From the NCBI GenBank assembly GCA_905480085.1, contig CAJQPD010000322.1:1-18655 (forward strand): a stretch of 18,655 nt of DNA. The letters are read 5' to 3'. The notes under the pieces are model-generated. The model saw nothing but the letters and a program-made list of their open reading frames with translations. It was not told where the DNA came from and did no database searches. The stretch comes from an uncultured Acidimicrobiia bacterium (GTDB lineage Bacteria; Actinomycetota; Acidimicrobiia; Spongiisociales; JAENVV01). The position numbers and the translations under genes were made by a program. Shown piece after piece: positions 853 to 15,732 of the stretch (its first letter is position 1; each line of letters starts with the position of its first letter).

Positions 853-1896
853 TCACCGAACGAGTCGGATGGTGCCTTCTGCCCCACTGTGGATCTCGCC
901 GATGACCGCACTCTCAAAGCACTCGTGTTCTTCAAGCCGATCCAATAGGTCCTGAGCTTCGGCCGGCGGGACGCAGATCAACAAGCCCCCGCTGGTCTGA
1001 GCGTCCGCAAAAAGCTGAAGCCAGGCAGGTTCAACATCCGATGTCACATGCGGGGACACCTCTTCAAGGTTCCGCTGACTGCCTCCGGGGAAGAACCCGG
1101 CCTCGAGCAGCTCCTCTACACCGTCCATCAACGGGACCTGATCGACCTCGATGAGCGCACTTACACCGGCCGACGTGAGTAACTCGCGCAGGTGGCCGAG
1201 TAGACCGTATCCGGTCACGTCCGTACAGGCGTGGGCATTGACCGCCGCCATGGCCAGCGATGCCCCGGCGTTCAATTCAGCCATGGTTTCGATGCAATAG
1301 CGGGCGAGTTCCTCGTCCACCTTTCCGGCTTTGAGAGCCGTGGTGATGATGCCCGTCCCGAGTGGCTTGGTCAGAACCAGTTGATCGGCCGGCCGGGCTC
1401 CGGCGTTGGTTTGGAGTCGACCCGGCTCAACGATGCCGGTTACGGCAAATCCGTATTTCGGTTCGGGATCATCAATCGAATGACCGCCAACGACCGTGCA
1501 GCCGGCTTCTTCCATGACGGAAAGGCCGCCTTCGATAACTCGCTCAAGCACGTCAAAGCCGATGACCCCCCGGGGCCACCCGACCTGTTGGAGTGCCGTG
1601 AGGGGGTCGCCACCCATCGCGTAGACGTCAGACAGGGCGTTGGCCGCGGCGATTCGCCCCCAGTCAAACGGGTCGTCAACGATCGGTGTGAAAAAGTCGA
1701 CGGTTTGAACGAGCGCGTCTCCACCGGGCGCCATGAAGACACCCGCATCGTCGGCATATTCGATTCCGACGATCAGATCGGGGTGCTGTGTGGCAGGGGA
1801 ATTGTGCAAGGGGCGCAGAACCTGCGCCAACTCAGCTGCGCTGAGTTTGCACGCTCAACCGGCGCCATGTGAAAAGGCAGTAAGCCGCTCAGACAT
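853..1896 (-). CDS. selD: selenophosphate synthetase SelD with in-frame UGA read as selenocysteine
   Basis: Selenide water dikinase makes selenophosphate from selenide and ATP; this is the selenium donor for Sec-tRNA. Reading from the ATG at 1896 gives MSERLTAFSHGAG-UGA-ACKLS, matching the SelD N-terminus SHGAG(C/U)GCK. Codon 14 (1857-1855) is TGA at the catalytic Cys/Sec position, followed by Cys16 and Lys17. The rest is canonical: YADDAG near residues 47-52 (metal/ATP Asp pair), SDVYAMGG, VVGGHSIDDPEPKYG and the C-terminal AIRS-like domain. Total length is 347 codons, typical for SelD. The sequence AAGGGG lies 5 nt upstream of this ATG. A caller that treats TGA as stop would start at TTG 1830 and lose the active site. 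A hairpin begins 8 nt after the UGA. SelD with Sec is known in other bacteria, for example Haemophilus. Confidence 0.96.
1829..1847 (-). promoter_or_regulatory. candidate bacterial SECIS hairpin in selD
   Basis: Immediately 3' of the selD UGA, the mRNA has an uninterrupted 8-bp stem AACTCAGC / GCTGAGTT closing a three-base loop GCA. The stem starts at nucleotide 8 after the UGA and the loop spans nucleotides 16-18. Published bacterial SECIS rules ask for a small apical loop with a G in its first two positions, about 16-37 nt after the UGA; this element fits. The element lies inside the coding sequence, so it also encodes KLSAAEL. Its function as a SelB-binding site is inferred. Confidence 0.75.
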
Positions 1897-10568: not shown

Positions 10569-11717
10569 ATGTTTGAATTGAAAACGGACCTCATCGAGGC
10601 AGCCACAGAACTACGTCGCGCCATACATCAGAATCCCGAACTCGGATATCAGGAAAAGGACACAACCGATGCGGTCGCGACGGCTCTCGATGTACCGGGG
10701 ATCACCCTCACCCGGCGGACCGGGACCGGTCTCATCGCCGACGTGGGGGCGGCAGGCAAGAGAGTCGCTTTTCGAGCCGACCTCGATGCCTTACCAATCC
10801 ACGAACTTACCGATGTGGCGTTCGCTTCGAAAACCCCCGGCGTCATGCATGCCTGCGGGCATGACGCCCACACGGCCATTGGTGTAACGATCGCCAAGCA
10901 TTTCGCCGGGATGGAACTCCCCGGCCGGGTCCGGTTCATCTTCCAGCCTGCCGAGGAAAGTTTCCCGGGGGGAGCCCAGCTGCTCATGAACGAAGACGTT
11001 CTCGACGATGTCTCTGCAATCCTCGCTTTCCATGTCGACCCTTCGCTTGAAGTCGGCAAGGTTGGTCTCAAAGCTGGTGCGATCACCAGTTCCTCCGATC
11101 GTTTCGAGATCATGTTGTCCGGTCCCGGCGGCCACACGGCCCGGCCTCACGAAACGGTCGACCTCCTCCATGCCGCCGGTCGGATGCTCACCGACTTACC
11201 TGCCCAATTCGCCAGGAGCATTGACGCTCGCATCCCGGTAGCCATGGTGTTCGGCCAGATCGCCGGCGGTTCGGCCGACAACGTCATTCCGACAGAAGTC
11301 CGGATGTCAGGGACCTGCCGGGTGCTTGATGAGCCCACCTGGCAAAGTATCCCGGAACGTCTTGAGCGACTCGTTCAGGCCATCGTCGCTCCGACCGGCG
11401 CGATCGCCAAGCTGACGTACAGTCGAGGGATTGCGCCTGTCGTGAATGACCCGGCCACGTTGGCCACCGCCGGGTCGGCCATCGAGGGCGAACTCGGCGC
11501 CGGTTCGACGGTCGGCACCGACGCGTCCATGGGAGCCGAAGACTTCTCCTGTTACCTACAGAAGATCCCTGGAGCACTGATCAGACTCGGTGCTTGGGAC
11601 GGCGTATCGGAAAAGACTGCCTTGCATTCGGCCTTCTTCACGATCGACGAACGGGCAATCGAAGCCGGCGTGCGGGCCGGAGCGGCATCGCTCCTCGGGT
11701 TACTCGTCGCACCATGA
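10569..11717 (+). CDS. M20-family amidohydrolase
   Basis: A 382-residue metal-dependent amidohydrolase of the M20D group (hippurate hydrolase, N-acyl-amino-acid and IAA-amino-acid hydrolase relatives). Motifs: HQNPELGYQE near the N-terminus, FRADLDALPI, the metal-binding MHACGHDAH (about 92-100), FQPAEES with the catalytic/metal Glu pair near 129-130, the late metal-site His in LAFHVDP, and GGHTARPHETVDL in the dimerisation domain. GTDASMGAEDFS is the C-terminal family motif. I choose ATG 10569 over the TTG at 10560 because the TTG overlaps the -10-like box. Its stop overlaps the peroxiredoxin start (ATGA), so the two are probably coupled. The amide substrate is unknown. Confidence 0.93.
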   Translation: MFELKTDLIEAATELRRAIHQNPELGYQEKDTTDAVATALDVPGITLTRRTGTGLIADVGAAGKRVAFRADLDALPIHELTDVAFASKTPGVMHACGHDAHTAIGVTIAKHFAGMELPGRVRFIFQPAEESFPGGAQLLMNEDVLDDVSAILAFHVDPSLEVGKVGLKAGAITSSSDRFEIMLSGPGGHTARPHETVDLLHAAGRMLTDLPAQFARSIDARIPVAMVFGQIAGGSADNVIPTEVRMSGTCRVLDEPTWQSIPERLERLVQAIVAPTGAIAKLTYSRGIAPVVNDPATLATAGSAIEGELGAGSTVGTDASMGAEDFSCYLQKIPGALIRLGAWDGVSEKTALHSAFFTIDERAIEAGVRAGAASLLGLLVAP

Positions 11718-12268
11718 CGAGCGATTACCCGCTCCCCGAAGGTTTGCCGGCGCCGATCGACGATGGGGCGGCCGATCATCTCGTCGGACGAGTCATGCCT
11801 CAGTCCGCCTTCTTGTCCACCGGAGGCGGTGCGGTCGATCTTGCAATGCGTCCTGGCCTGACGATCATCTATCTCTATCCAAAGACCGGGCGACCGGGCG
11901 TGGCGCTGCCCGATGGGTGGGATGCGATTCCTGGAGCGCGCGGCTGCACACCGGAATCATGCGGTTTTCGCGATAAGTACCAGGACATCATCGGCGCCCA
12001 GGCTTCCGTGTTCGGATTCTCGAGTCAGGACACCCCTTATCAGTCGGAGATGGCCGAACGCCTTGGCCTGCCTTTCCCTATCCTCTCCGACCCGGACTTT
12101 CTCCTGGCCGACTCACTTGAGCTGCCGACGTTTGAGGCAGGTGGCGAACGCCTATACACCCGTCTTACGATGGCGATCCTGGACGGTCTAATCGAACATG
12201 TCTGGTATCCGATCTTCCCAACCGATACTCACGCGGAGGTCGTGGTCCGCTGGCTCGCTAGTCGCTAA
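11714..12268 (+). CDS. BCP-type peroxiredoxin
   Basis: A 184-residue thioredoxin-fold peroxidase of the AhpC/TSA family. The peroxidatic Cys78 lies in ARGCTPESCGFRDKY and a second Cys83 follows after four residues, the C-x4-C pattern of atypical two-Cys BCP enzymes. The strand TIIYLYPKTGRPG and the later LPFPILSDPDF segment match the fold. Both Cys are encoded by TGC here, unlike the SelU-like gene 0.4 kb away. The start ATG at 11714 overlaps the amidohydrolase stop by ATGA; longer upstream reading frames would only add sequence inside that gene. It should reduce hydroperoxides in the cytoplasm. Confidence 0.9.
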   Translation: MTSDYPLPEGLPAPIDDGAADHLVGRVMPQSAFLSTGGGAVDLAMRPGLTIIYLYPKTGRPGVALPDGWDAIPGARGCTPESCGFRDKYQDIIGAQASVFGFSSQDTPYQSEMAERLGLPFPILSDPDFLLADSLELPTFEAGGERLYTRLTMAILDGLIEHVWYPIFPTDTHAEVVVRWLASR

Positions 12269-12640: not shown

Positions 12641-13174
12641 TTAGGGGATCGCCGCCATCACCTCGTCGAGATCGGCATGATCGCCGGCGTGGTCCTCGAA
12701 GTCGGCATACAACAGTTCGTCGCCCGGCCCGATCACCAGGGTGGCACCCAGCTGGAAGGGTCGGCGACCGCTCTTGTGTTGGCGATGTCCGGCCGCCAGG
12801 CTGCGAGCCCCGGCCGCCAGGGCGGACGGCTTGGCGATGGAAACCAATCCGAGCCGTCGGGTTCCGACGAGTTCGGCAGCCAACCCATCTTCGTCGAGGA
12901 GCACGTCGAAGGGTACCCGCTCATCTTCAATGAACGCCTGGGCATAACGCTTGCCACCGGTTCCAATGGCGACCACGGTCGCCCCTGTCGCGGTGATCTC
13001 TTCATATCTGTCGCGGACCTGACCGGCCCGCTCGCGGCAGGTCAGTCAGCCAAAGTGCCTGAGGAACAGGACCATGGCCGGCGCTTCCGCCCACCGGTCA
13101 CCGAGGCGATGCTCGACCCCCTCGGGGTCGATCAGCACGTGATCAGCTAGCTCACCGACGTCGAACGATCTCAT
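12641..13174 (-). CDS. SelU-like AhpC/TSA_2 protein with in-frame UGA (U-x-x-C selenoprotein)
   Basis: A thioredoxin-fold, peroxiredoxin-like protein (AhpC-TSA_2 / Prx-like 2 / SelU family), 177 residues. Translated from the ATG at 13174, it reads MRSFDVGELADHVLIDPEG, then VLFLRHFG-UGA-LTCRERAG. In Cys homologues this site is FLRHFGCxxCRE, so codon 43 (13048-13046) is the redox Cys position and the motif becomes U-x-x-C with Cys46. The frame stays open for 134 more codons with family features throughout: TVVAIGTGG, PFDVLLDEDGLAAELVG, LGATLVIGPGDELLY. A stop-at-UGA caller keeps only a fragment from about 12976. The start overlaps the upstream lipoprotein stop (ATGA). A hairpin begins directly after the UGA. 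It probably reduces or exchanges thiols or peroxides; its substrate is unknown. Confidence 0.92.
13019..13045 (-). promoter_or_regulatory. candidate bacterial SECIS hairpin in the SelU-like gene
   Basis: The 27 nt right after the UGA fold symmetrically: outer stem CTGACC / GGTCAG (6 bp), one U/C mismatch, inner stem GCC / GGC (3 bp), loop GCGAGCG with G first. The loop starts at nucleotide 11 after the UGA, slightly closer than the 16-37 nt usually quoted, although an alternative inner pairing (CCG / CGG, loop CGAG) exists. It also encodes LTCRERAGQ. SelB binding is inferred. Confidence 0.65.
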
Positions 13175-14115
13175 GGCCCGAACGATTCCATAGGCGTGAC
13201 GTTATCTTCGTCTGGCAAGTCGATGACGACGTTCTCGTTGTAATCGAACAGGTCATATTGCATCGACAAGACTCCCGCCGCGCTGACCTCTTCATACGAG
13301 ATCGCATATCGATAGATCCAGTTATCACCGGTGATCCAGACATCCATCGGCAGCTGGTCGATCCCTGAAGCTCGCAGCTCCTCCATCGTAACTCCACCAC
13401 CTAGGTCCCCAAGCTCCTCGATGTCGAACAAGATTCGATAATGAGTGGCTTCTTCCCCGCGAATCGTCTCCGTGCCGACCACCGACAGCTCGCCGCCGGC
13501 GTCGAGATACGAGGCAAGGGCGGCCACCGGGCTGGTGTTTTCAACCCCGGCCAGCCCCGCTGTATTGATCGCATCGTCGCTTGGCAGCTGAACCCAGTCG
13601 GTGGTGACACCCATGATCGCAAAGATCGGGAACTTCATGTAGGCGGTATCCCCGTCGAAAATGAACCGAACATCGGACAGATCTCCAAAGGCGGAAAGGT
13701 CGATGCCTTCGGTGGCGGCCGCGCCTTCAAACGCGTCGCTCATGTCCATCTTCATCTCAAGGCGTTCGGGATTGAACGATCCGTCCATGTAAATCGTGAA
13801 CGCTTGGGGCAATTCCGGGGTGGCCGCCAGCATCAAACTTGCCTCAAATCGTCCTGAGGTCGCCTCGGCGGACTGGACAGCCGCTTCGCGGAAGGCGGCC
13901 AGGTCAGAGGATGATGCCGGCGTACCCTGGGCGACCGTGGTTGTCGGGGAAGCCACGGTCGTCGGTGTCCCGGCCATGGTGGTGGTGGTTTCAGCCACCG
14001 TGACTTCGGTGACAACCGACGTCGTGGTGGTCGCTGGATCGTCCACCACATCTGTGGCGCCACCCCCGCAGGCGGCAAGTACCAGCATGAGTGCGGTAAT
14101 CCGGATCAGTTTCAC
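13171..14115 (-). CDS. exported lipoprotein, possibly LppX/LprG-like
   Basis: A 314-residue lipoprotein: signal peptide MKLIRITALMLVLAAC with a good lipobox and Cys16, a Thr/Val-rich disordered linker (about 22-70), then a domain of about 240 residues rich in beta-strand patterns (ASLMLAATPELP, MDGSFNPERLEMKMDMS, VRFIFDGDTAYMKFP, PMDVWITGDNWIYRYAI). The layout resembles the actinobacterial LppX/LprG lipid-binding lipoproteins, where a protein asks whether a test domain binds hydrophobic cargo; this match is from pattern only. It starts at GTG 14115 after a GGGGG run. Its stop overlaps the SelU-like start, so they are likely co-translated. Confidence 0.82.
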   Translation of the reverse strand: MKLIRITALMLVLAACGGGATDVVDDPATTTTSVVTEVTVAETTTTMAGTPTTVASPTTTVAQGTPASSSDLAAFREAAVQSAEATSGRFEASLMLAATPELPQAFTIYMDGSFNPERLEMKMDMSDAFEGAAATEGIDLSAFGDLSDVRFIFDGDTAYMKFPIFAIMGVTTDWVQLPSDDAINTAGLAGVENTSPVAALASYLDAGGELSVVGTETIRGEEATHYRILFDIEELGDLGGGVTMEELRASGIDQLPMDVWITGDNWIYRYAISYEEVSAAGVLSMQYDLFDYNENVVIDLPDEDNVTPMESFGP

Positions 14116-14946: not shown

Positions 14947-15732
14947 CGAAGACCTCGTGAGCGGTCCGACTGGCCGTCATCCCATTGATAATTTCGATTT
15001 GGTTGGCGTGCACCTGTGAGGGGTGATCTACCCCACAGGCCCTGGCCATACGCCCCAGTTCAAACCGCACGGTCTGGATGAATCGGCCCACCCGGACGCC
15101 CTTGTCGGTGGGGTCGAGGCCCCGTTGGAGCCATTTGGAGTTGGTGGCAACCCCGGTCGGACAACGACCGGTGTGGCACCGCTGGGCCTGGATGCAGCCG
15201 GCAGTCCCTCGCCCGAGCCGTGCAGGGCTCCGGCCAGCTTGGCTCCCTTGTTGAGGGCGGTTACTGCCGCCCCGGATAGGGATCCATAACTCATGGACGA
15301 GATGTTCACGATCGACAGAGGCGTAAAGGCTTTTGGGCGGCGGCGCGAACCACCGAGAACTTTGGCGGCAGGAATCATCTGACCGTCATCGAAAGTCTTG
15401 TCAGACTTCGGAAACGCGGCGTGTTTGATGATGACGTAGTTCTGCTGGAGATCGAGATCGTTGTCGGTACCAAACCCGAACAAGTTGTTCTCTTGCTTGG
15501 CCGACGAATAGATCCAACGTCGTTGGTCCCGGCTGAAGGGTCGATCGGCGTCGTTTTGCGTGACGATGTACTGGCGAAGTTCCGGGCCGAGTCACTCAAG
15601 CAGGTAGCGGAGATGTCCCACGACCGGAAAGCTGCGGAGGATGGCGTGCTTGGTCTGAACCAGGTCGTGGACGGCAACGAGAACGAGCGCTCCGGCGAGT
15701 CCGATACCGATCCAGGTCCACATGGGCGCCAT
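14936..15732 (-). pseudogene. FMN-binding glutamate synthase-family gene, broken by a stop and an internal deletion
   Basis: The intact family has an N-terminal membrane helix and a GltB-like FMN/Fe-S synthase domain of about 500 residues. From ATG 15732 the frame gives a membrane helix (TWIGIGLAGALVLVAVHDL) and RYLLE, then TGA (15594-15592), then resumes in the same frame with LGPELRQYIVTQNDADRPFS, FGFGTDNDLDLQQNY and ISSMSYGSLSGAAVTALNKG up to HGSGEG. At about 15205 the frame shifts and the protein jumps to its far C-terminus: GCIQAQRCHTGRCPTGVAT, with the 3Fe-4S ligands C-x5-C-x4-C, then WLQRGLDPTDKGVRVG, ending at TAG 14936. Only about 265 codons remain, so roughly 240 or more, including most of the FMN barrel, are lost. 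A product is very unlikely to work. Confidence 0.88.

Follow-up and report, generated by a model that had tools for sequence, protein, structure and literature searches.

We analysed an 18,655-nucleotide (nt) stretch of DNA from an uncultured Acidimicrobiia bacterium (hereafter the window), which is contig C322 of a 2.17 Mb genome bin that is 68.11% complete. On its minus strand the window carries a selenoprotein gene (12641..13174, TAA included) for a 177-residue AhpC-TSA_2 / PRXL2-like redoxin. The in-frame UGA at codon 43 is almost certainly read as selenocysteine (Sec) in this small redox enzyme. Three observations argue for selenocysteine: codons frozen within a hairpin past the UGA, genomes with a cysteine (Cys) form that lack detectable selA, and at least five changes between the Sec and Cys states. 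Overall, the product is very probably a thioredoxin-fold, peroxiredoxin-like selenoenzyme with SelB-dependent Sec at UGA 43 and a Sec43/Cys46 redox pair.

An in-frame UGA at the first redox position

The gene starts at ATG 13174, ends at TAA 12641-12643 and contains a single internal in-frame TGA (13046..13048, minus strand), which is the first position of a U-x-x-C motif. A preliminary description of this DNA had reported this start codon and the FLRHFG-TGA-LTCRE reading, and both are present in the sequence. The redox site reads FLRHFG-U-LTC-RE, with the UGA aligned to the first Cys of the C-x-x-C of relatives. The second redox residue, the Cys of U-L-T-C, is codon 46 (13037..13039, minus strand, counted from codon 1 at 13174); it was invariant in 26/26 rows of alignment A1.

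Homology past the UGA had also been proposed, and we observed that three genus relatives align end to end, on both sides of the TGA, at 97, 95 and 84% identity. Differences from genus relative G003 at first, second and third codon positions numbered 4, 5 and 20 in the 40 upstream codons and 13, 8 and 69 in the 129 downstream codons. Third positions hold most differences on both flanks. As in bacterial selenoproteins, an in-frame UGA lies opposite the Cys of homologues, with homology on either side.

Sec is the prevailing form among class copies

We searched a sample of 395 genomes of the class and scored the nine best candidates per genome, so copies may have been missed. Matches at 1e-20 were found in 61 of the 395 genomes. 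Close copies (below 1e-50) numbered 52 in 51 genomes, which places the selenoprotein in 51/395 sampled class genomes. Codon 43 was TGA in the 49 close copies with one TGA and Cys in the three copies without a stop. Five Acidobacteria copies, found in a separate search, likewise had TGA at codon 43.

Of the 57 genomic copies that make up the close family, 54 have UGA at codon 43 and 3 have Cys. Such Cys/Sec alternation was the check that the preliminary description had proposed for its U-x-x-C thioredoxin-fold selenoprotein of the AhpC-TSA_2 kind, and the counts uphold that identification. Its suggestion that the Sec form is uncommon did not hold, as this form is instead the rule among class copies (49/52 close copies). 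In the window's own genome and 58 relatives, 16/59 genomes had a homologue at E 1.1e-24 or better, with one internal TGA each. The family counts exclude 15 weaker rows of the class search (1.2e-28 to 7e-21, UGA and no-stop types) and likewise the weaker rows of the 59-genome search. The excluded rows were mostly paralogues, and G352 was a piece at a contig end. One genome, G270, has two near-identical Sec gene copies on separate contigs (C103 and C194; loci L187 and L188). The near-copy, G270b, was removed before the branch A codon test, the tree and the hairpin scan.

Protein databases record the selenoprotein mostly as a cut-off protein. We found 320 database homologues and listed 120; among the matches listed, 115/120 begin at codon 44 or later, and 47/120 start exactly at codon 44. 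This excess of starts at codon 44 suggests that gene callers begin after the UGA. The other 5/120 of the matches listed span codon 43, and all five have Cys there. One of the late-starting entries is P0014, with 134 residues, which NCBI names 'redoxin domain-containing protein [Acidimicrobiia bacterium]'; P0004 is a full-length Cys form with 73% identity over 98% of the query.

Synonymous codons are frozen in a hairpin past the UGA

We assessed synonymous sites in a codon alignment of the 26 nearest Sec copies (branch A). Excess homozygosity at codons +4 to +11 past the UGA was 0.403, compared to 0.033 elsewhere; this was the best of 80 windows, and none of 20,000 permutations reached it (kinship ignored). 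The codons GCC GGT CAG at +7 to +9 were identical in 26/26 close relatives, in which GGT makes up 19% of Gly codons. This block sits in a conserved hairpin, a bacterial Sec insertion sequence (SECIS) element (13013..13031, minus strand), 21 nt past the UGA. It has a 7-base-pair stem (GCGGGCC/GGUCCGC) and a GGUCA loop, and alone it folds at −13.0 kcal/mol. Its pair 18-30 was G-C in 21, A-U in 2, G-U in 1 and broken in 2 of the 26 sequences.

A second branch (n = 24, including the five Acidobacteria copies) carried GCG CAG TTG at +8 to +10 in 24/24 sequences. TTG makes up 15% of Leu codons in this branch, and the excess was 0.323 vs. 0.067 (P = 5e-4). The second block sits in a different hairpin, CGCGC-AGUU-GCGCG, 25 nt past the UGA. 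The loop, stem and spacing of both hairpins (GGUCA and AGUU loops) agree with the bacterial SECIS model in PMC13188914. The three Cys forms do not share the codons frozen in the Sec forms and carry CTG, CTG and CTT in place of the frozen TTG.

The preliminary description had placed a symmetric hairpin directly after the UGA. This hairpin exists (13019..13045, minus strand) and is overlapped by the one at 13013-13031. It is less conserved, with two of its six outer pairs kept in just 22/26 and 18/26 close relatives, and we do not regard it as the conserved SECIS. For the window sequence, the folding energy of the 45 nt past the UGA was no lower than that of synonymous shuffles (P = 0.24). Codon conservation is the stronger test. 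No Rfam family matched the window at gathering scores.

Sec machinery and changes between the Sec and Cys forms

The preliminary description had noted two UGAs at catalytic positions in the window, and we located the second in selD (853..1896, minus strand). This gene encodes a Sec form of selenide, water dikinase with the motif HGAGUACK and its UGA at 1855-1857. A probable SECIS hairpin of selD, picked out by eye, lies 33 nt past that UGA (1812..1828, minus strand; 7-base-pair stem, loop GUU). We obtained 31 selD matches in 30 genomes, the window's own included; 27 had one internal TGA and 4 had none (one partial). A motif search located 16/30 selD loci, of which 13 carry UGA and 3 carry Cys.

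Sec machinery is ordinary in this order. Among the 59 genomes, selA was over cut-off in 52, selB in 51 and tRNA-Sec in 49, and all three were present in the genus relatives G001, G002 and G003. Seven sub-threshold tRNA-Sec matches in the window's own bin were discarded, as ARAGORN gives ordinary tRNAs at those loci. We compared 22 other class genomes that carry the family: selA was detected in 18/19 with the Sec form and in 0/3 with the Cys form (P = 0.0026, Fisher test, kinship ignored).

We built a midpoint-rooted tree from 53 Sec and 8 Cys rows, 61 in all. Five changes of Sec/Cys state were needed, and well-supported branches force five. The meeting of long branches was flagged for three order-level copies and the Acidobacteria. 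Cys forms were nested among Sec forms, and genera g97 and g87 contain both. The simplest reading is a change from Sec to Cys that would accompany loss of the machinery, a direction that is inferred. With Cys sisters in two Sec-holding genera, the benefit of Sec vs. Cys is testable side by side, as is the evolution of a SECIS under protein constraint.

Fold and probable function

The protein scored 45.8 bits against Pfam AhpC-TSA_2 (PF13911; cut-off 27) and also passed the cut-offs of AhpC-TSA (PF00578) and Redoxin (PF08534). The nearest NCBIfam model was NF040769 'SelL-related redox protein', at 86.9 bits and under its 120-bit cut-off. This model matched 26/26 rows of alignment A1, and three of eight scanned relatives exceed its cut-off: L046, L047 and L144, a Cys form.

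Human prostamide/prostaglandin F synthase, PRXL2B (PDB 9us9, 9usa), was the best solved fold for the predicted model by two methods. It was also the best PDB sequence match (E 9.2e-7). FGCVVCR of the human enzyme falls in register with FGULTCR of the window protein, so that the U-x-x-C of the predicted model occupies the C-x-x-C position of PRXL2B. The human synthase differs in being eukaryotic, in having Cys rather than Sec, and in its low identity (18-23%). Eukaryotic SelU (PRXL2A), a member of AhpC-TSA_2, is likewise a thioredoxin-fold redoxin that contains Sec. In eukaryotes Sec insertion relies on a SECIS in the 3' untranslated region, unlike the hairpin inside the coding region of the window gene. 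Of the 'SelU type' label in the preliminary description, Pfam AhpC-TSA_2 membership and the PRXL2 fold stand, and support is confined to these two.

The motif PxxxTxxU marks the peroxidatic residue of peroxiredoxins in PMC13188914. The canonical motif, PxxxTxxC/U, is absent from the window protein, in which positions −7 and −3 are L36 and H40; H40 was invariant in alignment A1.

These data suggest a probable U-x-x-C peroxide or disulfide reductase. Judging from sequence evolution, UGA 43 would be recoded in vivo: SelB with Sec-tRNA would bind the hairpin at 13013-13031 and decode the UGA as selenocysteine, and translation would then run on to TAA 12641. In the presumably cytosolic protein, the Sec43 selenolate, at the N-terminus of helix 44-55, would attack an oxidised substrate. 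Candidate substrates are an organic or lipid hydroperoxide, an endoperoxide or a disulfide. Cys46 would then resolve the intermediate, giving a Sec43-Cys46 selenenylsulfide that may be reduced by a thioredoxin-type donor.

Two groups of loci in relatives show other redoxins. The distant redoxin paralogue at L031, L033 and L039 has RYFG-U-APC and appears to be a different family with Sec at the same site, and L038 and L041 carry a redoxin with DW-U-PYC, apparently a further Sec family.

Alternative readings of the UGA and of the enzyme

Several observations weigh against Sec insertion at UGA 43. We did not find selA, selB over cut-off or tRNA-Sec over cut-off in the window's own 68.11% complete bin, and Sec machinery is near-universal in the order and so discriminates little there. 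The preliminary description had named a genome devoid of Sec machinery as grounds for refuting its reading; this incomplete bin does contain SelD. Among 14 named control genomes, selA was over cut-off in 1, selB in 2 and tRNA-Sec in 5, which makes the tRNA-Sec model the least specific. The three Cys genomes are incomplete (88, 74 and 64%), two of them share a genus, and one Cys form (G220) still has a model-like hairpin (−5.6). The model hairpin is marginal for single sequences, with P = 0.043 for the window and a mean of 0.105 across the 53 Sec copies. At −4 kcal/mol it is missing from 3/53 Sec copies (G021, G337 and one Acidobacteria copy), and 11/53 miss the published −7.5 kcal/mol. The folding-energy test is weak: 26 sequences, of which five come from other redoxin families, gave a mean z of −0.80, compared to −0.36 to +0.76 at 14 control offsets. 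Both the permutation and Fisher tests ignore kinship. Some late database starts may reflect short contigs or contig ends. Flanking genes are shared by just five genus loci (L015, L016, L017, L044 and L045) of the 34 compared.

We weighed three other explanations of the UGA and rejected them on the counts given here. One is that a Cys gene has recently become a pseudogene through a nonsense mutation, or was misread in sequencing or assembly. The fragmented state of the bin, in which we detected neither selA nor selB over cut-off, would suit this reading; we give it next to no probability, as the same UGA recurs in 49/52 close class copies and five Acidobacteria copies and the coding substitution pattern is kept on both flanks. 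Should the true gene instead begin after the UGA (134 residues or fewer), with the UGA ending an unrelated upstream frame, the late starts of 115/120 homologues among the matches listed would be explained. The 42 residues before the UGA are, however, homologous to the N-terminus of the full-length Cys form P0004. They include L38, R39, H40 and G42, invariant in 26/26 rows of alignment A1, and form three strands of the predicted fold (13-15, 21-23 and 33-37), which leaves a late start very improbable. Decoding of the UGA as a residue other than Sec (for example Cys or Trp), whether by a reassigned or a near-cognate tRNA, draws on the bin's lack of tRNA-Sec over cut-off, and residue identity is not visible from sequence alone. 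Against it, UGA is also used here as a normal termination codon, for example by selD (853-855), and the window SelD has UGA at its known Sec site. The Cys form also accompanies absence of detectable selA, and the codons frozen in Sec forms are lost in the three Cys forms. We consider such decoding extremely improbable and retain selenocysteine.

For the enzyme itself the choice is closer. The selenoprotein could be mainly a thiol-disulfide reductase or electron carrier (ResA- or SelL-like) rather than peroxide-acting, and we put this at somewhat below an even chance. U-x-x-C with an invariant C46, the lack of PxxxT ahead of the redox residue, and ResA and SelL-related models among the matches all point that way. 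The top fold match of the predicted structure points the other way, as it is a PRXL2 enzyme that would by its name act on prostaglandin-type substrates.

Relation to catalogued selenoproteins

The chemistry, fold and recoding of this selenoprotein are of known kinds. A 2026 catalogue, which covers 119 families and subfamilies of prokaryotic selenoproteins, includes a cd02970 'Peroxiredoxin-like family protein (AhpC/TSA)' with UxxS (PMC13188914), and a 2022 table has pfam13911 with UxxS (PMC9312934). This catalogued Sec form belongs to the same Pfam family, AhpC-TSA_2, and differs in motif from the UxxC of the window protein. A differing Sec motif defines a separate subfamily under the rule given in PMC13188914. 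In the available parts of PMC13188914 and PMC9312934 we did not find a UxxC form of AhpC-TSA_2, and NF040769 and PF13911 were absent from the available main text of the 2026 catalogue. Its entries 'Prx-like thiol:disulfide oxidoreductase PF00578 UxxC/UxxU' and 'Redoxin family PF08534 UxxC' might, by their descriptions, cover this protein, since it scores over the cut-offs of PF00578 and PF08534 too. In searches of the open-access literature we recognised no paper describing this selenoprotein family.

A more far-reaching proposal, which we think unlikely though conceivable, is that the family forms an uncatalogued PRXL2-kind UxxC subfamily of Acidimicrobiia and Acidobacteria, with a branch-specific SECIS and repeated Sec-to-Cys change upon selA loss. 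It would then be a bacterial counterpart of SelU and prostaglandin F synthase that acts on organic endoperoxides or lipid peroxides.

Neighbouring genes

Among the 34 loci compared, flanking genes suggested no functional link beyond the genus, and phage records gave no match. At L139, the lone weak peroxiredoxin hit falls on the selenoprotein gene itself. A frame at 15028-15483 (minus strand) matches just 36/369 Pfam Glu_synthase positions, so a glutamate-synthase-domain gene may be broken or frameshifted in the assembly. A Cys peroxiredoxin-like gene with CTPESC (11711-12268, plus strand) adjoins the selenoprotein gene convergently; it is unmatched in the compared stretches of G001 and G002 and present in G003. 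Upstream lies a lipoprotein-like gene with no Pfam hit (13171..14115, minus strand), whose product contains LAAC, which we take to be a lipobox. Its stop overlaps the selenoprotein start as ATGA, and the two genes abut alike in G001, G002 and G003.
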